Shown here: piece by piece, positions 6,142 through 47,349 of the stretch
How the letters are laid out: each line of letters opens with the position of its first letter
Numbering within the stretch: position 1 is the first letter of the stretch
Source of the DNA: a virus
IMG/VR virus record: IMGVR_UViG_3300010430_000069
Coordinates: 1-50,740 of that record
Strand: one strand, 5' to 3'
Length of the DNA: 50,740 bases
Made by a program: the position numbers and the translations under genes
The notes under the pieces: generated by a model
Databases searched by the model: none
Told to the model about the DNA's origin: nothing
Seen by the model: the letters and a program-made list of their open reading frames with translations, nothing else

Positions 6142-8313
6142 CTATGCCCAAGTATTGGAAACGCCCGGAGTTCCAGCTACAACGACCCACAAGGTTGATG
6201 TCACCGCTTCCAGAGTCAGGGCCGAATTAGCTGCCATCGTGATTGACCCGCCAGTACCGGCAGTTGTCGAATCAGCCCCACCGACTACCTGAACACTTGC
6301 TGGCTGGGCAATCGTCACCGTTCCGCCTGCTGAAATATATTGGTGTCTTTGTCCAACTTCTGCAGTTGTCGGCAACGTGTAGGTCGTTGTACCAGTGGCG
6401 GAAATGTACGACTCACCCGGCAGCGTCGTTTTGTCAGCGTTTCGAACCTGAGTCTTTGGCGTCGACAGTCCTCGATAGAATCCAGACACTCGCCCAGACA
6501 CATCGTTGTAGGAGTTTTGCAGCGACAGGACGTTTCCGCTGGACTTCACGCCATAGCTGCCGTCTTGGTCATCGCCAAGGAACTTAAACCACTCGTAGGG
6601 CCTGCTAGGGTTCGACGCGATAGATGTATCGTGCGTACTGATCCTGAATCGCTCATTCCCGTTAATGTCAAAGAACTTGAACGCGTTGACGTTTCCTTCT
6701 GTGTTCGGATTCGGGAGAAACTGTAAAACAGAATTAACCTTATCGTATTCTACGGTAAACGCTTTTTCTCGCGTTCCTAGGTTAAGTTTATCGGTGAAAA
6801 TTTCGGCGTTGGCAATGTCATAAAATGAATAGCGGTTAGGTCCAATCATAAGACAAGACAGCTCACTAAGCATCATTGCGGACAAGTAGTCATTTGCAGT
6901 ATCTGGCAAATGCGTTCCGTCACCTTCCCAGCTCAAATCTGTTAATGCCGAATACGTCTTAAAATGCCGGTAGGCGTCAAACCAATACAGCCCACGATCC
7001 TCAGCATATTGGCGAACAAGTGCGTTTTCTGCGTATGTGTCGTTCTCAGTTTCGGCCCCTGTGTCTGAACTGTCAGGCGATGTCAGTATCAATACAAATT
7101 CAGTGTTCGCCGCAGCAATAACTGCATCTAGATAATTTATGAATCCGCCTGTTTCATAGCGGGCAACATTCTCCTTGTTCTCGCAGAACCAAAGCGTTGG
7201 ACACACGTCTGCCAACATCGCATCACGAGTAGAAGTATCCCAGTCCAAATAATCCTCAAAATTCATGCCGCCGCGTTGCATACTGTGTTCAACGAAAGCG
7301 TTCTTCGACAGAGCATTGAAGATTACCCGAGTTATCCTAACACGACCGCCTGATACGTGGACCGCCTTGATACCTCGTGAGCCGAAATCACTCCTAAGAA
7401 GGATTCGACCGTATGTCGTGGTTGGGTTGTCGCAGTCAATCGACGTGTAGCCTGTGATGTCAGACCATGAACTTGGCGATCCTTCGTCGGTGCTTTCCTG
7501 CAACTTGAAGATTCCAGCTCCCGATTCCTTCACGTAATAGACAACGATGAAATCGCATTCTGGGTTGTTTCCATTTACGCTATAGGCAGCTTCACCTCCA
7601 CTACCAATAGAAGTATAGGTTCCAGCGAAGTTTACTTCGTAGTCGTATTCCTTGCCGCTGGTGCCATCTGCATCCCATGCGTCGCCAGACAGCGACTTAG
7701 TTTGAAGGTAAATATCTTTTTCAAAAGTCGCCGCCCACTTGGCTCGAAATTGGTTGTATACTTTTGGGGCAACACTGTCTCCGGTTGAACCAGTTACAAG
7801 CTGTGCCTTTAGCGTGGCAGTGATTGTCCCTGTTGCCGGTGTGGTTGGCGTTTGGTCGGTGGCCATCTCGCAAGTGAAAGTCGTGCTACTTGGAACCGTC
7901 AAGATTCGCCAACCGTTGTTGTAGTCAGTTTCGTTTGCACCAGAGATCAGCACCGAATCGCCAACAATGAACAGGTGGTCAGTCGCGGTCGTGACAGTCA
8001 TAGTTGTGCCGGATCGCGTGATACTCGATACGGAAACTGCAGATTGCGTAGTATTCACAATGTCCAGTTTACGCATAGTACGTTTGAAATTCTTCAAAGG
8101 TGCGTTGGCATCTACTAAGAAAGAGGAGTCTCTAAGAGTTTCTGCAATCTGCTTGAGGTTCTCGTTTAGGAGAATTTTTCCCTCCATAGAGTCAATTGAC
8201 ATCTCTTGTCGAAAGAGTCCCAACATCTCATACGCAATACCATGTGACTGCATAAGAGGAGTAGGAGAGGTTGCTCCGGGGGAGGCGTCTGGGTAACGTG
8301 TCCAGTCTGACAT
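6142..8313 (-). CDS. Tail fibre/spike protein with SGNH-hydrolase-like domain
   Basis: The 723-residue protein has three parts. The N-terminal 65 residues (TSPTPLMQSHGIAYEMLGLF, GKILLNENLKQIAETL) are shared with the protein at 8365-8832. The middle contains beta domains and then an SGNH/GDSL-like region (about residues 330-490). In that region FVLILTSPDSSD is followed by GLYWFDAYRHF and WEGDGTHLPDTANDYL; the DGTH pattern fits the Asp-x-x-His catalytic block V. The C-terminal 80 residues are a small beta module, also like the end of the short paralogue. The SGNH part would be an esterase acting on acylated surface sugars. The block I Ser is not clearly identified. Confidence 0.7.
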   Translation of the reverse strand: MSDWTRYPDASPGATSPTPLMQSHGIAYEMLGLFRQEMSIDSMEGKILLNENLKQIAETLRDSSFLVDANAPLKNFKRTMRKLDIVNTTQSAVSVSSITRSGTTMTVTTATDHLFIVGDSVLISGANETDYNNGWRILTVPSSTTFTCEMATDQTPTTPATGTITATLKAQLVTGSTGDSVAPKVYNQFRAKWAATFEKDIYLQTKSLSGDAWDADGTSGKEYDYEVNFAGTYTSIGSGGEAAYSVNGNNPECDFIVVYYVKESGAGIFKLQESTDEGSPSSWSDITGYTSIDCDNPTTTYGRILLRSDFGSRGIKAVHVSGGRVRITRVIFNALSKNAFVEHSMQRGGMNFEDYLDWDTSTRDAMLADVCPTLWFCENKENVARYETGGFINYLDAVIAAANTEFVLILTSPDSSDTGAETENDTYAENALVRQYAEDRGLYWFDAYRHFKTYSALTDLSWEGDGTHLPDTANDYLSAMMLSELSCLMIGPNRYSFYDIANAEIFTDKLNLGTREKAFTVEYDKVNSVLQFLPNPNTEGNVNAFKFFDINGNERFRISTHDTSIASNPSRPYEWFKFLGDDQDGSYGVKSSGNVLSLQNSYNDVSGRVSGFYRGLSTPKTQVRNADKTTLPGESYISATGTTTYTLPTTAEVGQRHQYISAGGTVTIAQPASVQVVGGADSTTAGTGGSITMAANSALTLEAVTSTLWVVVAGTPGVSNTWA

Positions 8314-8364: not shown

Positions 8365-8832
8365 TTACGCCAAAATATCCCATTCGCCGGTTGCACCTGC
8401 TACCAAAGTAACAGAAGCGTTATCAGCCAACGAAGCAAGAGTTCCATTGATCGTAGCAGCAGTGGAGACCGTCCACGAGTTACCGGATACGTTGTTGATC
8501 CGCAGGATCTTGCCAACATCAGCAGCAGCTGGGCTGTGCAGAGTCAAAGTTTTGCTCGCACCGGCAGTCAGTCGAATGTAGGTACCAAAGTCAGCGGATA
8601 CCGTAGTGTAATCATCTGTCTTAGATTGAATCGTGAGTTTGAACAAGCTCAGCATCGTCTCAGCGATCTGCTTAAAGTTCTCGTTCAAAAGAATTTTGCC
8701 GTTTTCCGAGTCTACCGAGTCTGTCATGTTGAACAGAGCCAACATTTCATACGCATATCCATTTGCAGACATGAACGTAGTAGGCGAGGTAGCTTGGGCA
8801 GTGGCGTCATCAAAACCGGGCCAAACTGGCAT
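8365..8832 (-). CDS. Short fibre-like protein sharing modules with the large fibre
   Basis: The 155-residue protein starts with the same module as the 723-residue fibre: ATSPTTFMSANGYAYEMLAL aligns with TSPTPLMQSHGIAYEMLGLF, and GKILLNENFKQIAETM with GKILLNENLKQIAETL. It ends in a small Thr/Ala/Val-rich beta module (ASKTLTLHSPAAADVGKILR ... GATGEWDILA) that also resembles the end of the large protein. In effect it is the large fibre without its central domains. The shared N-terminus probably docks on the virion or trimerises; this is inference. Confidence 0.7.
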   Translation of the reverse strand: MPVWPGFDDATAQATSPTTFMSANGYAYEMLALFNMTDSVDSENGKILLNENFKQIAETMLSLFKLTIQSKTDDYTTVSADFGTYIRLTAGASKTLTLHSPAAADVGKILRINNVSGNSWTVSTAATINGTLASLADNASVTLVAGATGEWDILA

Positions 8833-12243: not shown

Positions 12244-13988
12244 TAAGTTTGCTCACTTTCAGGATCAACATTATCATCCGTAGATGGAGGAGTATCCTGC
12301 GTTTGAGTCGCTGTTTGGTCTACAGCAGTCGTTGGTAAATCATTTAAATCCTGAATCTTCAAAATCTGTCCACCAGATGTGCGGAGGAAGTTAACATTAC
12401 CACCAGGAATGGATTCCATTCCAAGGTTAGTACGAACTTCATTGATATCCTTAACACCATTCAACAAGTACATTTGATCAACTTCAGCCTGCATTCGCAT
12501 ATCGCGAACATCGTAAGGATCAAACTTGATGTAGCTGTGAATAATTCCCAGGCCTTTAGAGAGTAGCCTGTAGATTTGGTTTTGCCAGTATTTCTGGCGA
12601 GGTGTTACGATACGATCTTTGTACAGTTCAGCTTGAGACAATCCTTTACCTGAGCCAAGCTCTGCGGACTCAGCGATACCAAGAATTGCTGGGCTTGTTC
12701 CATGAGCTACCTGAATAGCTTGTGAGTTTGCTTTGTAAGTCTCAAGGAAGTCTGCTTCCTTTCGATCAGCCTCAACTCGTTCGAACTTTACAGAGACAGT
12801 CTTTCCGGCTCTATGTGGAATCGCCAATACCATTGTCTTATGGTATTGACCACGTACTTCCTTCGAAAAGTATTCCGTAATCGTCTTGCGGAACTCTGCA
12901 TCGACATTGGCACCCTCAACAATAACAGCATATCGTGGTACTGTATTGTTGTCGAAGAATTGACTAGTATAGTCTTTGATTCGGGTGTTCGTTTGAATCG
13001 CTGAGAGAGCTGGTATTGCATCACAGAAGCCATAGTAGATAGTATTAGGGTGTGAGTTAACTAACCACAAAACTTCATTTGCTGATTCCAAGACATTATC
13101 AGTAGTTTCTCCAGTTTTTGGATCTACGAGGTTCCACTCGGCTTTAGCCTTATCCAACGGCCCGTGCTTGACTGGGTCGTACGGTTCATAATAATCACGT
13201 TTCTTGGATCCGACTTTAATTGATTTTCGTACACGAACCTTCTCACCGAAATTCTGATAGTAGGTATATTGCGTTGTACCATTGACATCGCTCTCCTCTA
13301 CAAAACCTTCCCAGTTACGAAGGACTTTTATCCTAGCAGCCGGAATGTGTTGGATGTGCTCGATCTTTTTCGTGATGGGGTTACGAGTAACCTCGATAGC
13401 AGCCCATCCAATAGCTTCCCAATCTTGGGCTGCATTTCGGAGAACTTCTTCAAATCCCAACCGCGGATTGCAGTCATGGATAAAGGTTCTAATCTCTTCC
13501 AGTTCGGAATTGAACAACGACTTTGGAATTACTTCCTGACCCTCAGCTAGCTGTTCAATCTCGTCGTCCTCGATGACCTTTTTGAAGGAGTCAATCGTGT
13601 AGTTTCGATTTACAGCATCTGTGACTTTGGTTCGTACTGCTCGGTAGTGAACTTCATTAGTGTGTAAAAGATCAGCTACTTTTCGTGGGCAGTATGGAGG
13701 ATCAATAACGTGCCATTTACCTTGCAGAGCATAATGGTAAATGTCTGACTGATTAATCTCATCTGCACTCTGATTTAACCCTTCGATACCTTTAAGAACT
13801 TCTGTTCTTTTAAAGCCAGGGATATCAATTTCGGTGTAGGTATCCACCTTTCTGGTGGAAAGACCACTCCAAATTTCAGAGATTCCCTTTGCTAGGTCAG
13901 CAGATAAGGTGAAGTGAACTTCTCCGTCAGAGCCTTCAGTAATGAAGCCAGTGACTACAGGCTCTTCGAATTCAGTTGTTTGCTTCAT
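12243..13988 (-). CDS. Portal protein
   Basis: The roughly 580-residue protein has features of HK97/PBSX-type portals. The region HTNEVHYRAVRTKVTDAVN is followed by AAQDWEAIGWAAIEVTRNPI, HIPAARIKVLRN, NEVLWLVNSHPNTIYYGFCD, TRIKDYTSQFFDNNTVPRYA and GTSPAILGIAESAELGSGKG, with a charged disordered end. Twelve copies form the vertex ring through which DNA is packaged. I use the ATG at 13988, a few bases after the terminase stop; an in-frame TTG at 14000 would overlap the terminase. It stands between terminase and protease-scaffold, as usual. Confidence 0.88.
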   Translation of the reverse strand: MKQTTEFEEPVVTGFITEGSDGEVHFTLSADLAKGISEIWSGLSTRKVDTYTEIDIPGFKRTEVLKGIEGLNQSADEINQSDIYHYALQGKWHVIDPPYCPRKVADLLHTNEVHYRAVRTKVTDAVNRNYTIDSFKKVIEDDEIEQLAEGQEVIPKSLFNSELEEIRTFIHDCNPRLGFEEVLRNAAQDWEAIGWAAIEVTRNPITKKIEHIQHIPAARIKVLRNWEGFVEESDVNGTTQYTYYQNFGEKVRVRKSIKVGSKKRDYYEPYDPVKHGPLDKAKAEWNLVDPKTGETTDNVLESANEVLWLVNSHPNTIYYGFCDAIPALSAIQTNTRIKDYTSQFFDNNTVPRYAVIVEGANVDAEFRKTITEYFSKEVRGQYHKTMVLAIPHRAGKTVSVKFERVEADRKEADFLETYKANSQAIQVAHGTSPAILGIAESAELGSGKGLSQAELYKDRIVTPRQKYWQNQIYRLLSKGLGIIHSYIKFDPYDVRDMRMQAEVDQMYLLNGVKDINEVRTNLGMESIPGGNVNFLRTSGGQILKIQDLNDLPTTAVDQTATQTQDTPPSTDDNVDPESEQT

Positions 13989-13992
13989 TCTT

Positions 13993-15696
13993 TTATCCAA
14001 TGGTTAGGCAATCTGCCGATAAAGTATCTTGGTTCATTTCGTTGTGAGCTAGGATGTCATATACGTCAGCATGACGAGAGTGATCCTGGTTGGATCCAAC
14101 CCATTCATTCTTTGGGTTGCCTTTTTTGTCCTCAGTATAATTTCTTACCAAGGCCTTCATTTCCTTTAAGTAATCACCACCGTAGACAAACTCAACACCT
14201 TGGGGTAGTTGATTTCTCTTAGACCTTAGTTGTGCATATCCGCGGTCTAATGCTTCAGTACGATCAATGGAAATGATCATGTCGTTGTAATTGTACTTCT
14301 GAGTACGGTCAGTACCCTCACCCAAGTATTTACAACGCCAAACGACACAATTGGCTTCCTTTTGGAAGTCTTGAGCTAACTTCGACTCAGGGCCTGAGTC
14401 AATGACTGCTACCTTGACATTGTATCTCTCGATGAGATTGTGAAGGTCAGCCCAGCCAGTAGTTGTATCCAGTTTTCCAAAGAATACTGCTTGTCGCTTA
14501 CCCTTTACTGATCTACTAATACGAACGTCTAACCTACTAGGAGCGACGTCAATACCCATTGAGCAAGGTTCCTCAACACTATCGGATGGTATGTAGGACA
14601 TCTCAGGAAGATGTACCATCTCGATACCTGTAGCACATTGCTTAAGGAGATCGCCAGTAACAGAGTTACCTTGGGCTGAGAATGGCAAACCAAGACGCAT
14701 ATTGTAAAAATAACGCATCTTGGAGGGGTTGGTTAACCCAGCCTGAAACTCTGCATAAAGTTCAGCAACGGTAACCAGGGGAGAGACGATAGAAGGAACA
14801 TGATACCCTTCAATGTTCTCGGGACTGTGGGCATGTGGTAGCCAATGACAGTCATCGTCAAAACGTTGAACGATTCCTTCTGAGCAGTGAGGACATTTGA
14901 TATAAATATCTCTCCCACAACCTGGCGTCCACTCTTTATCCCGCAGTTGATAACTGACAATGCTGCCAGCACTATCCTTAATAGGATCAACTACAGTTTC
15001 AAACCAGTCCATATTACAGAACTTACCGCACGAATCACATGGAGCCATCCATCTTCTCTGATCCGACTTCAGAAACATCTGGTGGATCTTACCATCTGGA
15101 GTGGATGGGTTCGATAGGTAGATCTGAAACTTGTACTGGCTGGACGCCAGGCGTGACATTCCTAACTCAACATTTTCCCAGGTTTGTACCTGGTCAGTTT
15201 CGTCAACGCAGTAGAGATCGCCGGCAAATTCAACGAAATCAGACTCTACATTAGCTCCAACAAAGCGAAGCATTCCCTTACCAAAGGACAGAGTGACAGT
15301 CGAGTTCATGTTACCATCGCGAACAATCGACTGGTATTCAGTAGATTGGTTGATTGGCCTTTTTACCCGTGAAAGTACGTATGATTCTTTCATTTCGTAC
15401 TTAGGCAAAATACAGAACACATTGCACCCACAATATGCAGTTGCTAACATGTTGATGACCATGAATTCAGACTTACAAATCTGAGCAGCTCCCATCAAGA
15501 CCATGTGAGGGCTTAATGATTCGTACCATGCAATGCAATGCTTGAACTTCTGGAAATCCATTGGTTCGTTACGAGTTGTCTTGTGGTACTCAGTTGCGAA
15601 CCTAATCCTTGTGTTTCGGATCTCGATCAATCGTGATAACTTCTTCAGCTCCACTTCGCTCAGATCCAACACTGCGTTCGTCAAGTTGCTCGACAT
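13993..15696 (-). CDS. Terminase large subunit (GpA family)
   Basis: The 567-residue protein has a Walker A motif of the GpA type (GAAQICKSE, residues 69-77) and a Walker B acid pair (CVDETDQ, about 163-169). It also has the zinc-binding insertion found in GpA-type terminases (PCDSCGKFC at 219-227 and CPHC at 268-271). The C-terminal RNase H-like nuclease is seen at MGIDVAPSRLDV and VAVIDSGPES. It is the ATP-driven motor that cuts and packages DNA into the prohead. Its first 95 bases overlap the small terminase gene, an unusually long overlap. Confidence 0.92.
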   Translation of the reverse strand: MSSNLTNAVLDLSEVELKKLSRLIEIRNTRIRFATEYHKTTRNEPMDFQKFKHCIAWYESLSPHMVLMGAAQICKSEFMVINMLATAYCGCNVFCILPKYEMKESYVLSRVKRPINQSTEYQSIVRDGNMNSTVTLSFGKGMLRFVGANVESDFVEFAGDLYCVDETDQVQTWENVELGMSRLASSQYKFQIYLSNPSTPDGKIHQMFLKSDQRRWMAPCDSCGKFCNMDWFETVVDPIKDSAGSIVSYQLRDKEWTPGCGRDIYIKCPHCSEGIVQRFDDDCHWLPHAHSPENIEGYHVPSIVSPLVTVAELYAEFQAGLTNPSKMRYFYNMRLGLPFSAQGNSVTGDLLKQCATGIEMVHLPEMSYIPSDSVEEPCSMGIDVAPSRLDVRISRSVKGKRQAVFFGKLDTTTGWADLHNLIERYNVKVAVIDSGPESKLAQDFQKEANCVVWRCKYLGEGTDRTQKYNYNDMIISIDRTEALDRGYAQLRSKRNQLPQGVEFVYGGDYLKEMKALVRNYTEDKKGNPKNEWVGSNQDHSRHADVYDILAHNEMNQDTLSADCLTIG

Positions 15697-17083: not shown

Positions 17084-20000
17084 TTAGAAAGTTAAACCAG
17101 CACCAAAGTGGTTACACAAGTTCTTAATGCGTACATAAAGCTTGGCTCTCTGCTCTTTACTCAGAGTCTCTTTACCGATAATGATAAGTGGAGTTCTGAA
17201 GGCACCTGTTCCAGCCGGAGAGCCGCTTCTGTTGAGGGTAAATAACCAAAGGTCGTTTACTCCTCCGGGTACACGAATGTTTGTCCCAGATTGAATGGTA
17301 TCTACTGCTGTGGTGTTGGAGTACACTGATTGGTCAGACCAGTCAGACATATCTCCGATGAGAACATTAGGGAAGTAATCAGGGTAGTTTTCTACCCTAC
17401 CTCCATTGCCTCCTCCAGTAGAGTTATTGGCAACAGCTAGCTCAGTGGCAGTGCCTGTAGTTCCTACTCTATAAACAGAGTCATTGACGTTCTTTTCAAC
17501 ACCTACTAACACTTTGTAAGTGCGTTCATCAATTTCGGTAAGCACTGATGCAAAGTACCCAGCATCGACAGGAATGGCATCGTCTAAAAGCCCAGTCTCA
17601 AGATACGAGCTGCTGTCGCCTTTAAGGCCAAGTAAAGTGCCGGTGGCATTGTAGTCACCTGCTGCAAATCCGTTGTTTGTCAACGAACTGCCCGCAGGAC
17701 CATAATACTTAAGCTTCTCAGTAACTCCGTCAAAGCTGCCGCCGAGGAACAAGTAAGCCTCTAGAACAGTGCTCCATAGTCCGTCATCTTGCATACCTTG
17801 CACAAACTCATCGATGGCTTTGGTGTCTGCTTCGTAGTCCGAGAAAGTACCGCCAGCGTCAGAGAACCTAGTAAGGTAATCATTAGTGGCTGAGCGAAAC
17901 TTCTGGATACTGAAGCGAGCTTCGTATTTAGGTTTGACAGTACCAATTACTACGTCACCTGTGGGTTCGCCTTCGGTATAAGGGTCTAGAACTAAGTCGC
18001 CGGGAACAGAGATGTTAGGAGGCAGAGCCTCTACCACTGGAGCAAAGTTTACCTTTGACTCAGCATAGTTATACCAAGGTCCAGCAGGATTGGTCAGTGT
18101 GTTGCCGAGATCGTCGGTGCCATCGGCTGCGAGTGATGCTGGGATTCGGACGTTTTCTAGTGGCGTGTCGGTGGTTGGGTAGTATGGATAGTCCGAAGGA
18201 AAATCTGTCACTCCCTTAACGATCTGCATTTCCCTGTACCAGTACGAAACAGACGCGTCCCCTGTGTAGCTTCCGTTTGCCCGATGTCGCCAGTTGATAA
18301 AGTTATTTGTCCCACCCATCGTTCCGCCGACTTCGCACCGGTAGGTGTTAGGAGCTATTTCGACGATGGACGCATTAACATAACTTCCGCTAAGCGAAGC
18401 GGTGACATTTTCAAAGTCAAACTCAACCGACCCAACACCGTCAGAAGCAACGTGGAGATTGGTTGCCGTTGTTGTGTAAACAACAAACCGAACAGCCCAT
18501 GATGTACTAGCGAGAATTGGATGCCGTACCCTGTGTTGCCCCGTTGTTTCATCTTCGGTAGCAACTTGCCAGTCGCCGGAAGTCGTTACGGTCATATCTA
18601 AGGTTTGCCAGTCGCCATTCGTCGGGTCGCCAAACTCATCCGAATAAAGTGCTTCGTTCCACGCCAAACTGAAACCCTCATCCCAGTTGACGTTTTCCCC
18701 AAGCGTCATCGTGCCCCAGTTCGATGCCGCATTGGTGATGTCGAGCCACGTTTGCGAAACACGTTCACGAACACGGGTTCCAGCACCTTCGGCACATGGG
18801 ACATCAACGACTTTCGTTCCGTCAGTCCAGAATTCGAAATTCGACAACTTACCTTCAAACGGTGCATTTGTGGCTTCCGAGTTTGCACCCAAACGCCATG
18901 CGGTCGAAACATTCAACACGCCAGAAACGGTGTCTGAATACCGTTCAACTTCATCGACATATAGAGTCCGATCCCCACCAGAAACAACAAGCCGAACCGT
19001 GTGATCAGCACCGTCGTTAATCGAATACGAAACCGTTGGTGACGAACTGTTGTGTTGAAATGACAGATTCCCAGAACTGTTTGTCAGAATTCGGAATCCA
19101 TCCGTTCCGCTGTCTCGCCAACCGAAAATTACATAATTTGCAGCAGCCCCTGTCGTGTTCACAACGAAGCTGATTTCATAGTCGGTAACGTCGCCGCTAA
19201 TCACGTTCCCAGTGACATACTGAGAACTCGCACTTGCCAACACCAACGCACTATGTTCAACCACTTCCGGCTTCCACGGACAGATGCCGGTATTGTCAGC
19301 ATCGTTCTCATTGATGTCTTTCGTCAGATCAGTTGACAAGACTGGAAGTAGCGTTCCGATTGGTTGGTCATCAATAGCTTGGAATTCGGTGATTATTGAA
19401 CCGGCTTCGAATTGGAATTCAGCACGATAGTCGGTTCCAATGTCTCCGTATCGGTTCATAAAGATTGTACTGCCCCAAGCGCCAGAGATAGTCCCAGTTC
19501 TGAAGGTAATGAACAATTGAACCCAGTCACCGTCAGTTGCAGCGACACCGTGAGCGAGGGTTACTCCTCCTTTATTCTTAATTCCACTTGTGCTTGTTGT
19601 GTTACTTGTCCAGTTGTACGCGAGCTGGAATCTGTCTCCGGCAAATCCATTTGTGTCAATCTCGAATGTCGATGTGTTTTTTGTTCCCTGCTTAACCCAC
19701 ACCGAGGCGGTATAAATCGAATCAGGAGATGTCGAGTTACTGCCCCATCCAAGTGACGTGTTTACTGAAATGTAGACATGATCTGACAAGCCGGACGTTG
19801 GTTGGTTAAGTAGAACAGCCGTGTTGCCTCCATGCCGGTCGGTTTGCCCTCCAGTAAATTCAGAGTTTCCTGACGTTATCCAAAGCCCAGCACCTGTTGG
19901 ATAATCCCCAAGTGTTAAAGGGATTTGATTTCGAACTGTCGAAAACCCAACAGTGTTGTGGTAGCTGTATGGGATGTCTTGATCGCTGTAGACAGTTGGC

Positions 20001-20808: not shown

Positions 20809-21630
20809 TTATTCGTCCTGAGGAAGCTCCTCAAGCATTTTTCCAATGACGTAAGGCTTTTCCCCAATAATGATTGGTGTTTTCTTGAAGGTACCCTTTA
20901 TGAACTGGGTACATTGAGGATTAGCAATTTCTTTTCGCACCTCATCAGTAAAGACAATAGGTGCTCCGACTTTTAATACTCTCTCGTCCTGCTCAATAAA
21001 CTCGGAGGCTTGCTCAAACGAGTACATTCCAAGGATGTTAATCCCTTGCCAGAACGATGAACGTTGAACACTGAAGAACCTGCAATATTCATCGTTTAGG
21101 TACCATCGATCAGCGGACATATCATGAATCCAGGCAGGACCTGAGAAGACATTATTGAAAACTTGCTCAAGTAATGTCTTACTATCGGTGATGGCTGGGT
21201 TTTCCTCATAGAACCGAATTAGGTTCTTGCATTCTTCTAGATCATCTCTGCACCCAGCTACCGCGGTATTGAGATCAGCGTTCGCCTGGATCAATACCTT
21301 AATTTGCTCTGCCATTTGCTCAAAGGTAGATTTGTTTTGCTCTTTGAGCTCTCGGTAATAATCAATCATTACCTGATGTTCTGATTTCTTGAGCTCGGCC
21401 TGCATTTCTGCCTTTACCTTCTCAATTTCACGAGCCTTATCTACTTCTTTCTGAAGGAGCTCATTTTCATACTCTGCTTTTTTCTTTTTGGCTTCCTGCC
21501 GTTCCTTGTACCAAAAACCGACTCCTGTGATTATACTACTGAGAATAATTCCCCCAATAGTTACCCATGGAATTGATCCGTCCGGATTTGCTTGTAATGG
21601 GATTTCGGTTTGGGCTAGTAGTTCAAACAT
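20809..21630 (-). CDS. Membrane-anchored coiled-coil protein with PAS-like domain
   Basis: The 273-residue protein has one membrane segment (WVTIGGIILSSIITGVGFWY, about residues 22-41) and a long coiled coil (about 45-140, Lys/Glu-rich). It ends in a C-terminal domain of about 105 residues resembling PAS: PAWIHDMSADRWYLNDEYCR, FFSVQRSSFWQGINILGMY, then a helix and beta strands ending KPYVIGKML. PAS folds sense ligands or mediate contacts. It is the first gene of the late operon after the long leader. A role in host sensing, lysis timing or injection is open; the PAS call is by pattern and needs a profile search. Confidence 0.6.
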   Translation of the reverse strand: MFELLAQTEIPLQANPDGSIPWVTIGGIILSSIITGVGFWYKERQEAKKKKAEYENELLQKEVDKAREIEKVKAEMQAELKKSEHQVMIDYYRELKEQNKSTFEQMAEQIKVLIQANADLNTAVAGCRDDLEECKNLIRFYEENPAITDSKTLLEQVFNNVFSGPAWIHDMSADRWYLNDEYCRFFSVQRSSFWQGINILGMYSFEQASEFIEQDERVLKVGAPIVFTDEVRKEIANPQCTQFIKGTFKKTPIIIGEKPYVIGKMLEELPQDE

Positions 21631-21639
21631 GGTGATGAC

Positions 21640-22340
21640 CTATATTGGGCCGGCGAGGGGCGTAACTTATTTACTGTTAGGACAAAAAGAATGCCTCGTG
21701 CTGCAGGTATACAAAGGTGGGCAACCCAGATTTGATTACAACTGAGTATGCTAGGCAGAAAAAGAGCGAAGCGAATGAGAAATCCGACTTGGTTTTTACC
21801 AATAGGGTATCAAGGAAAAGAACATGGTGTGACAAGCGTCGAGCTGTCACTACATACTCTGATTGGGAACCTGTTGGGCGTTCACTACATCCCAGGTGAT
21901 ACACCGGGCTACGATACGTAGCTCTGTATTATCTTAGGCTACGCGAAAGCGGCTCCCGCCTGCTTTATCTCTGTAGGTAGTGGATCCTATATTGGAGAAC
22001 CTGTCGGTTTTTTCACTTACACTTCGTTCCAGTTAGTATTACTAGGCGTAGCCAGGCTTTTGTTAAAAGCTAGGCTTGCCAGGCAACCTTACGATTGCAA
22101 AGCAATACCGGATGACCATTAGATAAGACGTTCGTCCCATGGTCATAAAAAAGGTGTTAGAGCACCGTAAAACTCTCTTGGAAAACACCATATCAACAGG
22201 TGTCACCGGGTTACTCCCGTAGGGGTTGGCTGGGTTCTGATTACCACCAGCACTGTTTTCCTCAATCTTACTCACGACCCTTTTGAGCGGGCAGATAGTC
22301 ACTGGTAAGATACTTGTGACTGTCCAAAGTAGAGATGGAC
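21640..22340 (-). ncRNA. Stem-loop-rich, gene-poor late leader; candidate large structured RNA
   Basis: About 700 bases lie between the minus promoter at 22347-22375 and the first late gene. No convincing gene is seen on either strand. Many local inverted repeats are present. Read on the minus strand these include AGTCAC/GTGACT, ATGACCAT/ATGGTCAT (8 bp), ATTGC/GCAAT, CTTTT/AAAAG, CGTAGC/GCTACG, GTGAC/GTCAC and TTGGT/ACCAA. An attenuator-like stem with six Ts lies inside. This density suggests a folded RNA, like the large ornate RNAs of phages (GOLLD, ROOL), or a complex leader. The strand is inferred from the promoter. Confidence 0.45.
22147..22189 (-). terminator. Terminator/attenuator-like hairpin inside the late leader
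   Basis: On the minus strand GGTGTT pairs with AACACC, with an inner AGAG/CTCT helix, followed directly by six Ts. It lies about 150-190 bases after the predicted transcription start. It could therefore end a short RNA or act as an attenuation point controlling late expression. Confidence 0.55.
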
Positions 22341-22346
22341 GCTAAC

Positions 22347-22375
22347 ATTATACCAATCGGTAGATATTAGGTCAA
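22347..22375 (-). promoter_or_regulatory. Late-side sigma70-type promoter
   Basis: On the minus strand: TTGACC (22375-22370), a 17-base spacer, then TATAAT (22352-22347). This is a near-perfect housekeeping promoter pointing at the leader and the structural operon. Transcription should begin near 22340. Confidence 0.85.
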
Positions 22376-22401
22376 GCAGAAAACGGAATATTAGAGAATT
22401 T

Positions 22402-22440
22402 TAAAGAAAAAACCCTCAAAGGATGATCCCCTGAGGGTTT
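22402..22440 (-). terminator. Terminator between the divergent promoters
   Basis: A 9-bp stem (AAACCCTCA / TGAGGGTTT) is followed on the minus strand by TTTCTTTAA. It would stop leftward transcription arriving from the right before it reaches the late promoter, insulating that promoter. No clear T-tract exists on the plus strand. Confidence 0.75.
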
Positions 22441-22535
22441 AGCTGCTCGTAACATAAGTGCCAGGCTGTGAATAATTCCCAGAGCGTAGAGTTCGGGTCG
22501 GTTTGACCAATTTTGGGAATTTTCTTGAAAACTAG

Positions 22536-22564
22536 TTGACTTATTTTCCGCAGTTCGGTATAAT
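22536..22564 (+). promoter_or_regulatory. Promoter for the rightward metabolic operon
   Basis: TTGACT (22536-22541), a 17-base spacer, then TATAAT (22559-22564). The RNA start should be near 22571, giving a leader of about 130 bases before the first gene. A small dyad (GTAGGA / TCCCAC with one mismatch) lies at the start site. Confidence 0.85.
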
Positions 22565-22703
22565 GTAGGAAAATCCCACAAAATGCCATAAAAGCCGGGC
22601 CTCTACTTGTTAGTACGCCCTTAGACGAGCAAATCTACAAGAAACCGAGAAATTTCTGTATTTTCTCCATTTTTCTCTAAACTCTAGCTTTGGGTGCTAT
22701 TTT

Positions 22704-26670: not shown

Positions 26671-27169
26671 AATGTGTAAATTCTACTCTCTGGAGCCGAT
26701 TTCTCCTGAGGTACGCAAGAACTTTACTCTGCCTTCTTGGCCATTTTACAATGGACCTACTGGACCTATCCCACCAGATTGTTTACAATACTTTCAGAAA
26801 CTGAGAATTATTCACTGGAATGATCCCAACAGCAAAGTGAAGAAAGTACCAAACAGCATCATGGTGCCAGACGAAAATGGATATACACCTGATGAATTAC
26901 AACCTCCATTGGAAATTAAGGCTTATCGCCACCTGGTTTCGATTGACCTCGACACCTTCAAAGTAGCTGAGATCCCAAAGGAATACCGAGGTGGTATTTC
27001 TGATAAAGATTGGCTTGACTTCTATGGTGACTTTAAGTGGTGGTTAGAGTGTAACACACTTGGGACCATTTACGGAATCTCCAATACAAGAGTAAAGTTT
27101 GTGATCGATGACAAAACTAAAGGACGCGGACTGCATAATCTCCAGAGTTTTCGCCCAGAGACTGGTTGA
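26663..27169 (+). CDS. Unknown protein
   Basis: I start this at the ATG at 26663 (MLRMCKFYSLEPISPEVRKN), preceded by GCGGAG. The 168-residue protein is rich in Pro, Trp and Tyr, with segments LPSWPFYNGPTGPIPPDCLQ and DWLDFYGDFKWWLE. It is probably a compact globular protein. I recognise no domain. It overlaps the preceding and following genes in other frames. Confidence 0.6.
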   Translation: MLRMCKFYSLEPISPEVRKNFTLPSWPFYNGPTGPIPPDCLQYFQKLRIIHWNDPNSKVKKVPNSIMVPDENGYTPDELQPPLEIKAYRHLVSIDLDTFKVAEIPKEYRGGISDKDWLDFYGDFKWWLECNTLGTIYGISNTRVKFVIDDKTKGRGLHNLQSFRPETG

Positions 27170-42235: not shown

Positions 42236-42519
42236 CCCGAGTATATTTTAAAGGCCCGTTTGAGGCGGAGATGGTTGAGGTTGCCCGGCAATGTGGAGGT
42301 GAGTTGCCCAGTTACCTCATGCTCTACCGCGGTAATGAATCCTGGTACCTAGGAGAAGACTTGTACTATGAGATCGATGACTACCGTCTAGTTCGAGACC
42401 TAGGAGACGTAGCCGTCTATGAATACGTGGGAGTCATGCCCGTTGCTGCTCCTCCGAGATTCCAGAGAGTGAAGATTGACCTGGAAGGTAGTGATCCACA
42501 GGAAAGCCTGGAATCGTAG
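42232..42519 (+). CDS. Unknown small acidic protein, last gene of the operon
   Basis: A 95-residue protein (MTRVYFKGPFEAEMVEVARQ ... YEYVGVMPVAAPPRFQRVKI) with mixed strands and a Glu/Ser-rich end. After it the gene order stops and an A-rich tract begins. No family recognised. Confidence 0.58.
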   Translation: MTRVYFKGPFEAEMVEVARQCGGELPSYLMLYRGNESWYLGEDLYYEIDDYRLVRDLGDVAVYEYVGVMPVAAPPRFQRVKIDLEGSDPQESLES

Positions 42520-42787
42520 GAAAGCCTTGAAAGCCCTGGAAAACTACAAGAAAAAAAAAACACAGGAAAAAAAAATAGAGAACGCAAGAAAGCACAAGAA
42601 AAAATAAGGAAAAAAAGAGAGAACGGTTAGTGTAGACCCTGCCCAGGGGTGAAACCGGACATACCCCCGGGGGTCGCGGTCTCGGTCCCTGTCCTCCTAG
42701 GCGATTCTAGCCGCCTGGGATCGATTCTCATGAGCTCCTAACCGCCCGGGCTATCCCGGGCGGGATTCTATCGGGATCCCTTACGGG
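42520..42787. repeat. Non-coding A-rich and palindromic junction
   Basis: No gene. The first 20 bases repeat GAAAGCCTTGAA-like words from the preceding gene end. Bases 42541-42625 are an A/G tract with long A runs. Then come a perfect 12-bp palindrome ACCCCCGGGGGT (42663-42674) and a 9-bp hairpin CCGCCCGGG / CCCGGGCGG with loop CTAT (42742-42763). The hairpin sits after the stop of the next minus gene and is probably its terminator, though it lacks a T-run. Confidence 0.7.
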
Positions 42788-43213
42788 CTAACCTGTGGCC
42801 CCATGTCGCCATAGCTGAGATCGGTAGGCAATCGCCTGATTGTACAGTTTGACATAACCAATTGGGTGATCCCAGGATACCCGCTCGGCTAGTTGGCGGG
42901 CACGGGTAGCAACCGGGCGGGATAGGCTCGCCCGTAGCTTGTCACACTCCTCTAGAATCTGATCGGTTACCTGTAGAATCTTTAGGTCACCTGGGATCCC
43001 ACGACAAACGTATACTTTCGCCCGTTCTGCTTTGATAACCTGGGAATAGTTCTCACCGTTCCACTCATAACCGTATACGGTACCTTGAAACCAGGTTAGT
43101 TTGTCGCACGCGTATTCTCGCCCGCCCACCCGGATAACCCAACCGTATCCGCGGTTGTTTGCGTCGAGTATATCTGCTTTTGTGATTCTACGATGCGATT
43201 GTCGGATTCCCAT
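42788..43213 (-). CDS. Cassette gene: unknown protein
   Basis: A 141-residue basic protein (MGIRQSHRRITKADILDANN, GYGWVIRVGGREYACDKLTW, IKAERAKVYVCRGIPGDL) with an N-terminal beta-rich part and a helical end. CTAGGAGA lies upstream of the ATG. It has its own promoter (43256-43284) and a GC-rich hairpin after its stop, the cassette plan of this island. No family recognised. Confidence 0.62.
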   Translation of the reverse strand: MGIRQSHRRITKADILDANNRGYGWVIRVGGREYACDKLTWFQGTVYGYEWNGENYSQVIKAERAKVYVCRGIPGDLKILQVTDQILEECDKLRASLSRPVATRARQLAERVSWDHPIGYVKLYNQAIAYRSQLWRHGATG

Positions 43214-43255
43214 AGCTTTAATCTCCTAGGAGGTTGTTCGGTTGTTCTGTCGGTT

Positions 43256-43284
43256 ATCTTACCGCCCGGGCGGGCTAGTGTCAA
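43256..43284 (-). promoter_or_regulatory. Cassette promoter with palindromic spacer
   Basis: Minus strand: TTGACA (43284-43279), 17-base spacer CTAGCCCGCCCGGGCGG, TAAGAT (43261-43256). The spacer holds the perfect 12-bp palindrome CCGCCCGGGCGG, a likely operator between -35 and -10. Its leader holds AACAACC twice. Confidence 0.8.
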
Positions 43285-43412
43285 CTAGGATTCCCGGTTA
43301 TTTGCTGAATTGCCCAATATAGTAACAGGCGGGCGGTCTCGGTTAAATAATCCGCTCCCAGGACGATAGTAAGCGTAGCAAGCAGCCCCTGCCAATATTC
43401 TCGATCAAACAT
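43281..43412 (-). CDS. Short cassette gene: 43-residue unknown protein
   Basis: An ATG at 43412 is preceded at 9 bases by AGGAGG, within the palindromic CCTCCTAGGAGG. It encodes MFDREYWQGLLATLTIVLGA, then DYLTETARLLLYWAIQQITG and NPS. One moderately hydrophobic helix pair. Its stop codon lies inside the -35 box of the next promoter. The strong ribosome site is the main support. Confidence 0.62.
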   Translation of the reverse strand: MFDREYWQGLLATLTIVLGADYLTETARLLLYWAIQQITGNPS

Positions 43413-43489
43413 AGGTTGTTTCCTCCTAGGAGGATAATCGGTTATTCGCCCGGGATCCCTTGAGAATTATTCCCATCCTGGACAAATTT

Positions 43490-43732
43490 TTATTCTATCG
43501 TCCTGCAATCCGCCCGGGTTACTCGCCTGGAAGTATGGAAGGAATCCGCCCGGGTTAGGAAACCTAGCTTGCCAATAAAATCCTGACCGGTTAGTTGCTG
43601 GGAGCCTAGCCCGGTAGTATCGGGTGGCAGGTATATTGTCCACCCGTCAGCATGATAGACAAACCAGCTATTGAGATGACCTAATTGGCCACCATGGAAA
43701 ACCAGGCTATCAAAGTTAGAAGGCAATTGCAT
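43490..43732 (-). CDS. Cassette gene: unknown small protein
   Basis: I start at the ATG at 43732 (MQLPSNFDSLVFHGGQLGHL), which has TTAGGAGC upstream; an in-frame start at 43810 would overlap the previous gene by 65 bases. 80 residues with WFVYHADGWTIYLPPDTTGL, beta-type, and a basic end. The gap to its upstream neighbour is 13 bases, so both share a transcript. Confidence 0.55.
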   Translation of the reverse strand: MQLPSNFDSLVFHGGQLGHLNSWFVYHADGWTIYLPPDTTGLGSQQLTGQDFIGKLGFLTRADSFHTSRRVTRADCRTIE

Positions 43733-43745
43733 AATCCCAGGGCTC

Positions 43746-43988
43746 CTAAAATCCGTGTACAGTTTCGGTTGGCGGGGTAATGTTGGGCGAGAATCGGCTA
43801 GTGTGGGCAATTACCATCTTACCACCCGCCCGGCGAACAACTACATAGGAGGGACAAACATAGGCGATCCCAGGGAAGTATAACCCGGGCTCCACTCGCA
43901 CGAGGGTAACCCGTTCTCCCAGGTTAGGAGATGCCGGGTTATCCCGATCCGGGCGAACACAAGTTAGCTGCAACGGTATCCTCAACAT
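43746..43988 (-). CDS. Cassette gene: unknown small basic protein
   Basis: An 80-residue protein (MLRIPLQLTCVRPDRDNPAS, RVTLVRVEPGLYFPGIAYVC). CCCAGGAGAT lies before the ATG. The C-terminal half is basic (VVVRRAGGKMVIAHTSRFSP). No cassette-type promoter is seen upstream, but a 6-bp hairpin (CCCCTA / TAGGGG) lies 20-35 bases before the start. Confidence 0.55.
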   Translation of the reverse strand: MLRIPLQLTCVRPDRDNPASPNLGERVTLVRVEPGLYFPGIAYVCPSYVVVRRAGGKMVIAHTSRFSPNITPPTETVHGF

Positions 43989-44326
43989 AATGTTATATCT
44001 CCTGGGAGCCCCTACCGATAGGGGGATAGGTAATTTTAGGTTGACACTTGGTATTTTGCTGGGTACACAGGCAGCGAGAGAGAAAGCAGTCTAAAAAATA
44101 GGAGCCTAGGAGCCTAGGAGCCTAGGAGCCTAGGAGCCTAGGAGGTTATAAGGGATCCCACTATAACATAACCTGGGAGGCTATTCTATTCTAATCCCCC
44201 TGGGATATTCTCCTAGTAGTTGTTCGCCCGTTCGCCCGTCCTGGGATCCCTGGGAATTATTCTCCCAGGTTAGGAGGTTAGGAGCAAAATAGCCCGCCCG
44301 GGATCCCAGGCGGGTTAGTTTCAATC
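43989..44326. repeat. Non-coding stretch with 8-bp tandem repeat and hairpins
   Basis: No gene. Bases 44101-44145 are five copies of GGAGCCTA plus GGAGG, an 8-bp tandem array that multiplies the ribosome-site/CCTAGG word of this island. Hairpins CCCCTACCGATAGGGG (44005-44030 region) and CTGGGA/TCCCAG (44249-44267) flank it. A plus-strand TTGACA at 44041 has only a poor -10 partner. The stretch probably arose by slippage of island boundary words. Confidence 0.75.
44293..44314 (-). terminator. Cassette terminator
   Basis: Minus strand: CCCGCC-T-GGGATCCC-G-GGCGGG forms a 6-bp stem with an inner palindrome, followed by CTATTTTG. It lies 12 bases after the stop of the 83-residue cassette gene. 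Confidence 0.72.
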
Positions 44327-44578
44327 CTAGCACTCAACGGTTAGCATTCTCAGCGGGTTACCCTGGATAACATAATCCTCCCGCCAATGAGCTGGAATAG
44401 TTGAGGGATACCGCGGGTTTACGTCTCCTAGGTCGCTCGTTTCCAGCTGAATAACGGTTGGGTCTGGGTGATTGCACTCGGTCTCAATTTTCACGACTAA
44501 TAGTCGCCGCCCATGGTAGTGTATAACCTGATTTTTTCGAACGTTTACAATGCTGGTTTCGGTTGTTTGCTTGGCCAT
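44327..44578 (-). CDS. Cassette gene: unknown small protein
   Basis: An 83-residue protein (MAKQTTETSIVNVRKNQVIH, YHGRRLLVVKIETECNHPDP ... LRMLTVEC), beta-rich and basic, perhaps a small nucleic-acid-binding barrel, but not recognised. It has every cassette element: promoter at 44619-44647, AACAACC leader, CCTAGGAGC before the ATG, and a terminator after the stop. Confidence 0.65.
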   Translation of the reverse strand: MAKQTTETSIVNVRKNQVIHYHGRRLLVVKIETECNHPDPTVIQLETSDLGDVNPRYPSTIPAHWREDYVIQGNPLRMLTVEC

Positions 44579-44618
44579 GGTTGGGCTCCTAGGCGGTTAG
44601 TTGGTTGTTCTGCTTTTC

Positions 44619-44647
44619 AATATATCGACCGCCCGTCCGCCCGTCAA
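44619..44647 (-). promoter_or_regulatory. Cassette promoter
   Basis: Minus strand: TTGACG (44647-44642), 17-base spacer GGCGGACGGGCGGTCGA, TATATT (44624-44619). The GGTCGATA junction before the -10 is shared with the promoter at 46026-46054. It lies directly after the terminator of the previous cassette. Confidence 0.82.
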
Positions 44648-44655
44648 TACTAATT

Positions 44656-44722
44656 CAAAAAATAACCTGGGAGCCCGATAGAACAACCGCCCGGGATCCC
44701 AGGTTATACGCTCCCAGGTTAT
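44656..44722 (-). terminator. Long-stem cassette terminator
   Basis: Minus strand: ATAACCTGGGAGC and GCTCCCAGGTTAT form a perfect 13-bp stem around a GC-rich 35-base loop, followed by a run of five Ts. It overlaps the stop codon of the 199-residue gene. The same arms reappear at 46071-46195. Confidence 0.88.
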
Positions 44723-45318
44723 GAGACCAGGGAGCCCGTTCTGTCGGCTATAGGTCCCAATGGGAACCGGTAACCGTACGCTTGCCAATTTCGATATTCA
44801 TGCATGATTGGAAAGAAACCTACCGCCCGTTCAAGCTTAACTTGATAGCCTACCCAAAGACAAGCTTGTGTTTGAGCGTAGGTTAACCCGTGCACGCGGG
44901 CTAGTCGTTTGATAGCCCGGGTTATCCGCCCGTAGTTGTCCGCTCGAAATAGTTTTTCCTGGGGTACCTTGAATATTTTTCCCATCCAGCTATCGAGCAC
45001 GATAGCCCGCCCGTTACCAAGTAAAGCTTGCTGGAAAGCGGAGGTTTTTCTCCCGCGTATTTCGCCCGTCAAAATGTAGTGTTCTGTGGCAATGATCACA
45101 TTGTCCATGGCGTCAAGATAATTGGAATTGCCCATGACTTCAAATGCTATGCGGATATTACGCTTTACCGATACTTTCGGGCTAGTCGTGGCAATCACGC
45201 CAGCGAGGTTAACGGGATCCCACCCGTTTAAATCAGCAACCGTCCGGAGCTCATCTTCCGCCCGGGAATACCATTCCCGCCCGGTCTCGCCCGCCAATTC
45301 TATTAGCTTTGAATACAT
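44719..45318 (-). CDS. DUF7178-like protein (helix-hairpin-helix glycosylase-like pattern)
   Basis: The 199-residue protein resembles a phage family I recall as DUF7178. REWYSRAEDELRTVADLNGW is followed by LAGVIATTSPKVSVKRNIRI, an A-F-Q-Q-A-L-L-G-N-G segment with IVLDSWMGKIF, and LTYAQTQACLWVGYQVK. The pattern of helices with a lone Lys and Asp is like HhH-GPD DNA glycosylases, but an active site is not proven. It could act on damaged or modified DNA. GTTAGGAGA precedes the ATG. No own promoter is visible, so it probably depends on the upstream cassette. Confidence 0.6.
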   Translation of the reverse strand: MYSKLIELAGETGREWYSRAEDELRTVADLNGWDPVNLAGVIATTSPKVSVKRNIRIAFEVMGNSNYLDAMDNVIIATEHYILTGEIRGRKTSAFQQALLGNGRAIVLDSWMGKIFKVPQEKLFRADNYGRITRAIKRLARVHGLTYAQTQACLWVGYQVKLERAVGFFPIMHEYRNWQAYGYRFPLGPIADRTGSLVS

Positions 45319-45362
45319 TATTAGCTTTCTCCTAACCTGGGATCCTCCCAGGATAATAATGC

Positions 45363-45396
45363 GAAAGAATAGGAGCCCGATAGAATACCGGGCTCC
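45363..45396 (-). terminator. Cassette terminator
   Basis: Minus strand: GGAGCCCG / CGGGCTCC, a perfect 8-bp stem with a 9-base loop, followed by TATTCTTTCG. It lies 15 bases after the stop of the 45412-45960 gene. Confidence 0.75.
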
Positions 45397-45411
45397 CAGG
45401 TTAACCGCCCG

Positions 45412-45960
45412 TTAGATACGGATCTCGGAACGGTTGCTGATATCCCATATCGCCAATTGACGGTTATATCTTCCCACCCGGATAGCCTCGGATAATTCCG
45501 GGATCCAAATAGATCTATCTAGATACAGCTGATTGGAGTCAATCCAGCCTCCCAGGAAACGTTCGCCCGTTCGCCCGTCCTGCAACCAGTCCAGGTTATC
45601 CCAGGTGAATCGGAAAACATCGGCGACCGAGAATCCGACGTCAATAGTTTCTCCGCGGTAGTTTACCATGGTTTGACGTTGGAGGATATCGCCTCCAATC
45701 ATGGAAACGAGATAGCCCGTTTCTCGACAATCCCAGGGAGCTACCGAAAACCCGCCCGATCCCAATTGACTAAAAGCCAGGGCGGTTAGGTCCGCGGCTA
45801 GTTTCATAGCCCGGGCGGTTGTTCGGCTATCGTCATCCTGGGAAACAAAGCCACAATATGAGGCGAAGCGGGATTCTCCTATAGTATAGGAAAGCACTGG
45901 GAATAGTTCTCCCTGGGAGTGCCCTTGAATGCCGGCAACATTATCACGCAAGTTCAACAT
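45412..45960 (-). CDS. Cassette gene: unknown protein
   Basis: The start is set at the ATG at 45960 (MLNLRDNVAGIQGHSQGELF), which has GAGGAG 9 bases upstream. The in-frame start at 46026 would fall in the -10 box and is excluded. The 182-residue protein is mixed alpha/beta (AMKLAADLTALAFSQLGSGG, FSVADVFRFTWDNLDWLQDG). No family recognised. Own promoter at 46026-46054 and terminator after the stop. Confidence 0.65.
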   Translation of the reverse strand: MLNLRDNVAGIQGHSQGELFPVLSYTIGESRFASYCGFVSQDDDSRTTARAMKLAADLTALAFSQLGSGGFSVAPWDCRETGYLVSMIGGDILQRQTMVNYRGETIDVGFSVADVFRFTWDNLDWLQDGRTGERFLGGWIDSNQLYLDRSIWIPELSEAIRVGRYNRQLAIWDISNRSEIRI

Positions 45961-46025
45961 ACTTCTGACTCCTCGAAAGTTTGAAAAATAGCCCGGTTGA
46001 TTAATTCGCCCGGTTGCTGCAATCA

Positions 46026-46054
46026 ATACTATCGACCGTCCGGGCGGTTGTCAA
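46026..46054 (-). promoter_or_regulatory. Cassette promoter
   Basis: Minus strand: TTGACA (46054-46049), 17-base spacer ACCGCCCGGACGGTCGA, TAGTAT (46031-46026). The spacer contains CCG(CCCGGA)CGG-type dyad sequence and the shared GGTCGATA junction. Confidence 0.8.
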
Positions 46055-46066
46055 TTGCAATTATGG

Positions 46067-46200
46067 AAAAATAACCTGGGAGGCTCCCAGGTAAACCGAG
46101 CTCCCAGGATCCCAGGATCCCAGGCTCCCAGGACAACCGGGCTCCCAGGACAACCGGGCTCCCAGGATCCCAGGACAACCGGGCTCCCAGGTTATTTTTT
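46067..46200. terminator. Bidirectional terminator-like inverted repeat filled with 17-bp repeats
   Basis: ATAACCTGGGAG (46071-46082) and CTCCCAGGTTAT (46184-46195) form a 12-bp stem. A-runs on the left and T-runs on the right give T-tracts on both strands. Between the arms the words CTCCCAGGACAACCGGG and CCCAGGATCC are repeated several times. It sits exactly between the divergent cassette promoters at 46026-46054 and 46230-46258 and would insulate them from each other. Confidence 0.7.
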
Positions 46201-46207
46201 GAAAATT

Positions 46208-46227
46208 GTCAATTCTATAGAATTGAC
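46208..46227. promoter_or_regulatory. Perfect 20-bp palindrome beside the plus cassette promoter
   Basis: GTCAATTCTATAGAATTGAC is its own reverse complement and ends three bases before the -35 box at 46230. A symmetric protein-binding site (activator or repressor) is the simplest reading. Confidence 0.65.
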
Positions 46228-46229
46228 TG

Positions 46230-46258
46230 TTGACGGGCGGGCTAGTTGTCGATATTAT
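46230..46258 (+). promoter_or_regulatory. Cassette promoter, plus strand
   Basis: TTGACG (46230-46235), 17-base spacer GGCGGGCTAGTTGTCGA, TATTAT (46253-46258). Same spacing, GTCGATA junction and GAACAACCTCCTA leader word as the minus-strand cassettes, although it faces the other way. Confidence 0.82.
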
Positions 46259-46301
46259 TAAAGCACGACAAACGAACAACCTCCTAACCTGGAAACCTAC
46301 A

Positions 46302-46463
46302 ATGTATCGAAAATTATTTTCTCAATCTGACTTTGATTCTTTCTGTGAAGCTGTCGCCGAATTAATAGGAGCCCGAAACGTTGCAAATAATCTTAAGAGA
46401 ATCCTGCACTACTACCAAAACGACTACACGCCAGGGGAAACCGCGGATATCCTGGGAGAATAG
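46302..46463 (+). CDS. Cassette gene: 53-residue unknown protein
   Basis: From the ATG at 46302 (MYRKLFSQSDFDSFCEAVAE, then LIGARNVANNLKRILHYYQN and DYTPGETADILGE), a small helical protein. Its promoter starts 72 bases upstream. An 8-bp GAAA-loop hairpin follows the stop. It is the only plus-strand gene of the island. No family recognised. Confidence 0.62.
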   Translation: MYRKLFSQSDFDSFCEAVAELIGARNVANNLKRILHYYQNDYTPGETADILGE

Positions 46464-46474
46464 GGAAACCCGGG

Positions 46475-46494
46475 CTCCCTGGGAAACCAGGGAG
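46475..46494 (+). other. GAAA-tetraloop hairpin after the plus cassette gene
   Basis: CTCCCTGG, loop GAAA, CCAGGGAG: a perfect 8-bp stem 11 bases beyond the stop. There is no T-run, so it may stabilise the 3' end or end transcription only weakly. A GCCCGCGGGC palindrome follows it. Confidence 0.65.
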
Positions 46495-46726
46495 ATTGCC
46501 CGCGGGCGGGCGATCCGACCAGAGGGAGGAGGGGGAGGAGATTTTGATTTTTTTCGCGTGCACACGTACGTGTAGGCGGTTAATACGGGCCGGCGTCAAA
46601 TTCTGGAATAATACCATAGATTAACAAATTCAAGGTTCAGTATATAATACACTGCCGCCGCGGCCCGGTTCAGCTTCAGTTTCCCCAATTCAGCCAGCCG
46701 GCCACAAATTTCCAGGTTAGTCTATA
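46495..46726. other. Non-coding stretch with palindromes and a lone TATAAT
   Basis: No gene seen. It holds GCCCGCGGGC, a G/A-rich run, the 12-bp palindrome ACACGTACGTGT near 46562, and three related CAAATT-type words (near 46597, 46626 and 46704). A TATAAT at 46643-46648 has no matching -35 box. Confidence 0.5.
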
Positions 46727-47309: not shown

Positions 47310-47349
47310 AACCCCTGGGAATAATTCCCAGAGGGTTTTTTTTTATTTT
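47310..47349 (+). terminator. Strong plus-strand terminator
   Basis: AACCC / GGGTT enclosing TGGGAA / TTCCCA with loop TAA, followed by nine Ts, an A, and more Ts. It would stop rightward transcripts, such as those from 46230 that run on through the opposite-strand gene. Confidence 0.85.

Follow-up and report, generated by a model that had tools for sequence, protein, structure and literature searches.

Gene organization around the gap

The DNA comes from an uncultured phage represented by a 105,608-base IMG/VR record (~105 kb), half of which, a stretch of 50,740 nt, was analyzed and is called the window here. Window positions 1-25333 correspond to contig positions 80276-105608, and window positions from 25334 onward correspond to the contig from position 1, with 100% identity where the two were compared. 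A gap of 1,073 nt (21631-22703; contig 101,906-102,978 on the record) separates a leftward gene block from a rightward gene block, and the two blocks are divergently transcribed (Table 1). The leftward block keeps to one strand from the 273-aa gene through the 1237-aa gene to the terminase, portal and capsid-type genes, and the tape-measure gene, which lies in the remainder of the record, shares that strand. In the rightward block, the 163-aa gene is followed by genes for ribonucleotide reductase, the exonuclease subunit of DNA polymerase, thymidylate synthase and RNA ligase. With its sigma-region-4-like end, the 163-aa protein is a candidate regulator; its structure model was poor (mean pLDDT 58.8), and Foldseek returned no match at E <= 0.001. 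Elsewhere in the window, the proteins encoded at 6142-8313 and 8365-8832, which are neighbors, are 58% identical over their first 60 residues, as after a duplication.

Table 1. Features in and around the gap, in window coordinates. Ranks refer to 490 U-tract sites.
Feature	Position	Strand	Remarks
Large terminase subunit	13993..15696	-	Virion-gene marker of the leftward block
Second leftward-block gene, 1237 aa	17084..20797	-	Weak laminin-G match
First leftward-block gene, 273 aa	20809..21630	-	Without a confidently assigned family
Untranslated leader, ~710 nt, expected start to ATG of the first late-block gene	21631..22340	-	Extent predicted from promoter and gene start
Confident helices in series, opposite strand	21693..22321	+	710-nt fold, z = -4.65
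Domain closed by long-range helix 21764-21795 / 21997-22029	21764..22029	both foldable	More complete on +
Second terminator-like hairpin, T-rich tail (hairpin at 21863-21822)	21815..21863	-	-14.8 kcal/mol, rank 27
T6 attenuator-like stem	22147..22188	-	-9.6 kcal/mol, rank 129, weak
Competing hairpin GACACC...GGTGTT, sharing the 5' arm of the T6 stem	22184..22204	-	Possible antiterminator, putative role
Two adjoining small hairpins at the extreme 5' end of the leader (22340-22322 and 22321-22297)	22297..22340	-	
Leftward promoter P-, TTGACC-17-TATAAT, extended -10 (TGG before TATAAT)	22347..22375	-	11/12 sigma70 consensus
Strong intrinsic terminator, T-rich tail	22410..22440	-	-18.8 kcal/mol, rank 11
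Copy of dispersed near-palindrome CTGTGAATAATTCCCAG	22466..22482	either	
Terminator-like hairpin, T-rich tail, directly before P+	22473..22527	+	-16.0 kcal/mol, rank 18
Rightward promoter P+, TTGACT-17-TATAAT	22536..22564	+	11/12 sigma70 consensus
First rightward-block gene, 163 aa	22704..23195	+	C-terminal sigma-region-4-like helix-turn-helix, weak scores

The best relatives of the phage (G002, L044 and L051) are fragments only, and none of them matches the gap. G002, in which the terminase is 72% and the capsid 75-76% identical, is a 47.7-kb record that ends ~2 kb upstream of the terminase gene, short of the expected position of the gap, and the L050 contig and the window share 4,653 bases at full identity, all outside the gap. 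By blastn, no homologue of the gap was found among phages and plasmids, in 12 related viral records or in the compared related loci, and tblastx of the gap against the compared related loci detected no related gene. The ribonucleotide reductase of L039 and L040 (8936-9728) and of L041 (4985-5670) was found to be split near residue 302-324 by ~700-800 bases, in an intein- or intron-like manner.

Coding content of the gap

The longest open reading frames inside 21640-22340 encode 75 and 79 aa; neither had a PHROG match, and their overall hexamer coding scores were -0.12 and 0.04. On this leave-one-out score, the median for true 120-nt coding pieces is 0.30, and 0.12 is the 99th percentile for wrong frames. 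Two stretches of the gap exceeded 0.12 and were coding-like, one on the minus strand (22160-22309, +0.24 to +0.29) and one on the plus strand (21680-21799, +0.24), both without a convincing gene in frame. By hexamer score, no frame of the gap was both open and coding-like over a long span. The coding-like stretches may at most be traces of former genes. A hidden protein extending across the whole stretch was ruled out by stop codons and coding scores, and the short reading frames and low hexamer scores bear out the original prediction that 21640-22340 contains no convincing genes.

Divergent promoters and their upstream terminator-like hairpins

The consensus promoter predicted at 22347-22375 was recovered on the minus strand as TTGACC-17-TATAAT with a TG before the -10 element, and transcription from it is expected to start at ~22340. 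The whole window contains three sites that match the sigma70 consensus at 11/12 positions; two of the three lie inside this one gap, and P- is the sole such site on the minus strand. An 11/12 match alone is not significant, because block-shuffled windows (8 shuffles) yielded 0-3 sites at this level. What is persuasive is the arrangement, in which two of the three 11/12 sites lie in one 1-kb gap, are divergent and front two gene blocks. The promoter, the absence of genes and the gene order together support the earlier claim that the late block is preceded by a long untranslated leader.

A hairpin with a T-rich tail lies upstream of each promoter. The terminator upstream of P- would end leftward read-through and thereby shield P-, and the hairpin directly before P+ would likewise shield P+. 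A promoter-like site within a gene of L055 (12927-12899, minus strand) has TATAATGTTAGC in common with P-.

RNA folding on both strands

The 710-nt sequence folded to -210.9 kcal/mol on the minus strand (z = -2.79) and to -237.6 kcal/mol on the plus strand (z = -4.65), and on either strand 0 of 100 dinucleotide shuffles were as low. Since this genome folds better than shuffled sequence in general, segments of the same length from the genome were used as controls. On the minus strand, the value of the leader in that comparison (-2.3) was reached by 32 of the 75 controls (14/36 in the window and 18/39 in the rest of the genome); on the plus strand, -4.5 was reached by 2/36 segments in the window and 1/39 in the rest of the genome. 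The leader strand folds in a manner ordinary for the genome, while the opposite strand ranks within the top few per cent. With 200-nt pieces as a genome-wide control, the minus strand of the leader again did not stand out (rank fractions of 0.12 to 0.92 for 6 pieces). Judged from the shuffles, composition alone favors the plus strand by ~15 kcal/mol, compared with an observed difference of 27, and the plus-strand preference of structure is suggestive. When the whole ~1,070-nt gap was folded, the minus strand came out ahead (z = -6.63, versus -5.31 for the plus strand; 40 shuffles per strand), a minus-strand value that does not speak for the leader because the extra 360 nt contain the strong minus-strand terminator upstream of P-. 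Nested long-range helices were predicted on both strands, and much of the helix closing 21764-22029 forms on the minus strand too. Any ornate RNA could be on either strand, because the opposite strand folds unusually well.

The stretch had also been described as dense in perfect hairpins. It contains 6 perfect stems of at least 6 bp, where shuffling predicts 2.4 (as many arose in 1 of 100 shuffles), and to that extent the description holds; however, as many such stems were counted in 12 of 72 segments taken from the same window, and the single 8-bp stem was matched in 16 of 100 shuffles. Elsewhere in the window, 4 kb of sequence (42500-46500) consists largely of a few GC-rich words (CCTGGGAG, GGGATCCC, CCGCCCGGGC and CCTAGGAG); its hairpins are very strong (to -31 kcal/mol), and the scored genes there lie far apart.

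A 17-bp near-palindrome, CTGGGAATNATTCCCAG, is dispersed through the DNA, with copies at 22466-22482, 12535-12551, 47315-47331, 26801-26817, 44250-44266, 21539-21555 and other positions, and is also present in L048 and L051. The window contains 9 matches with up to 3 mismatches, both strands counted, versus 0.20 expected, and the record contains 24 sites with up to 4 mismatches, whereas up to 40 half-shuffled controls averaged 4.1 and had at most 11. The sites lie within genes as well as between genes and recur in related records; they may be sites for a phage DNA-binding protein.

Terminator-like stems in the leader

The T6 attenuator-like stem of the original prediction is present at 22188-22147 of the minus strand, and a transcript stopping there would be ~194 nt long. 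By its numbers it cannot be told from a chance hairpin: it ranks 129 of 490, and the 195-nt stretch from the promoter to the T6 tract folds like its shuffles (z = -0.62). The T6 stem and an upstream hairpin that uses the same arm are mutually exclusive, and a further terminator-like hairpin lies closer to the late block (Table 1).

Interpretation of the locus

The gap is real and holds no convincing gene. Our best reading of these sequence features, which we hold tentatively, is that it acts as a divergent control region and gives the late operon a long leader. Two host-type sigma70 promoters point apart at the switch between the rightward and leftward blocks of a tailed phage, and P- would transcribe the ~710-nt leader and then the virion genes, the start site and the late-block reading from here both being predicted. 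Since a near-consensus host promoter leaves little room for control at initiation, the leader is the likely site of post-initiation control. RNA polymerase would partly stop at the T6 stem (~+194) and at the hairpin 21863-21822, and a phage factor or a refolding of the RNA would let it through to the virion genes by a presumed termination/antitermination step. The region is compatible with an antitermination leader, though the attenuator stem is weak, and no antiterminator gene was recognized among the 37 proteins given to PHROGs. Also counting against this reading are the shuffle-like folding of the first 195 nt, the better fold of the opposite strand and the lack of any homologue, among the sequences searched, in which the leader is conserved. 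A divergent control region between the nucleotide-metabolism and virion blocks, with post-initiation control as the likely role of its ~710-nt leader, appears quite possible, short of being probable.

A different reading, possible though on the unlikely side, is that P- or the opposite strand gives rise to a stable large structured noncoding RNA that works like the ~800-nt RNA of phage ICP1 or like GOLLD and ROOL without being a member of those families. The ~700 nt without genes, the nested long-range helices on both strands and the plus-strand fold (z = -4.65, a level attained by only 3 of 75 control segments) would fit such an RNA, and the ~800-nt transcript of ICP1 (PMC7567579) folds no better (z -2.5 to -3.6) and likewise stays below every Rfam gathering score. 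Folded on the strand that carries the neighboring genes, the ICP1 gap gave z = -3.56 over 850 nt and -2.47 over 710 nt, with 26 background segments ranging from -4.4 to +2.4; since an RNA that is seen in transcriptomes folds no better, folding scores can rule the present gap neither in nor out. Against a noncoding RNA, the stretch has no Rfam match and no homologue among the searched sequences, no sigma70-like promoter precedes the plus-strand fold (one 8/12 site lies inside it), and the minus strand lacks a strong terminator directly before 21630. That the stretch would represent a new large RNA class, unrelated to GOLLD and ROOL in sequence and possibly encoded opposite the late-leader strand, seems improbable; if it did, the two strands of one 700-bp stretch would have separate roles, one as late leader and the other as a structured RNA gene. 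About as improbable is a leader that has decayed from earlier coding or spacer sequence and, apart from the promoter it carries, has no function as RNA. The ordinary minus-strand structure and the two stretches scoring above the wrong-frame 99th percentile (minus 22160-22309 and plus 21680-21799) would suit decay, but tblastx found no related gene, the plus-strand fold is unusual, and as much as 700 nt without a use is seldom retained in phage genomes. The remaining reading, to which we give slightly less weight still, takes the gap chiefly as a replication origin, a hairpin-rich and partly AT-rich DNA where gene blocks and replication forks diverge. Across the whole record, cumulative GC skew is lowest in the bin ending at 103,276, next to the gap, and highest at 19,001, next to the convergence point of the two blocks, although the skew is confounded because it also follows gene direction. 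AT content is 57-65% in 100-base windows over 22320-22703, and one perfect TTATNCACA box lies at 22475; however, the record has only 3 such boxes, unclustered and all within the dispersed 17-bp motif, and no iteron array was found.

Large structured RNAs and long late leaders are few in phages, and their functions are mostly unknown. Should a discrete RNA be shown here, it would be an example without a family from a phage lineage that has no close relatives in culture. If there is no discrete RNA, the gap would be an ordinary divergent control region, and the case would show that hairpin counts made by eye do not separate structured RNA from the background of this genome.

Comparison with known RNA families and leaders

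Membership of GOLLD or ROOL had been suggested in the original prediction, together with an Rfam covariance scan as the check. At Rfam gathering scores no family matched the window (all 4227 families scanned, with the inclusion of GOLLD assumed), and the remaining record yielded nothing but two tRNAs. A lax scan of the gap gave six matches, all below the cut-off and neither ROOL nor GOLLD; the best was His_leader (E 0.01), which lay on the strong terminator upstream of P-. A ROOL (RF03087) search of two related records found no match, with 14 control genomes that included no positive control. GOLLD, ROOL and any other Rfam family were rejected on this lack of covariance-model matches, and the suggested membership was not upheld at gathering or lax scores.

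GOLLD and ROOL are described as phage or prophage RNAs that often lie near tRNA islands and have covariation-supported structures; many GOLLD members exceed 800 nt (PMC12286853). The GOLLD covariance model, with its universally conserved 3' region, gave no match here. In size the stretch may compare with these RNAs, with 710 nt between the expected start and the adjacent gene and at most 1,073 nt if the entire gap is counted; it resembles them in belonging to a phage genome, in lacking genes and in its predicted nested long-range helices. It is unlike them in matching no covariance model and in its distance from tRNA genes, the only two found being at ~contig 29,170 and 30,190, ~32 kb from the gap, away from the tRNA-island setting often seen with ROOL. 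In phage K, two long noncoding RNAs were likened to GOLLD and ROOL by their proximity to tRNA genes and their abundance (PMC9241854).

With the Q-type late leader of lambda the locus shares a strong sigma70 (host) promoter before late genes and a terminator-like site ~194 nt downstream, a distance that the promoter-to-terminator spacing of the lambda late leader resembles. Unlike in lambda, the terminator is weak and is followed by ~500 nt of further leader. Q acts at the lambda late genes (PMC7171158); no Q-like gene was recognized among the 37 proteins given to PHROGs. As in attenuators with competing hairpins, such hairpins surround the T6 tract, and a possible 16-codon mini-ORF with an upstream GAGGA site was noted by eye; unlike known attenuators, the leader had no family match above the cut-off.

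The most abundant transcript of ICP1 is ~800 nt long and comes from an ORF-less ~1-kb gap adjoining the start of the lysis cluster (PMC7567579). A blastn search of the present gap against the phage collection gave no match of any kind. The ICP1 RNA was seen in RNA-seq, whereas an RNA from the present gap is predicted. The two are alike in their fold scores, in that the ICP1 gap does not reach an Rfam gathering score either, and in their setting, since the ICP1 RNA, between gp139 and gp140, also occupies an ORF-less ~1-kb gap adjoining the start of a late gene cluster.
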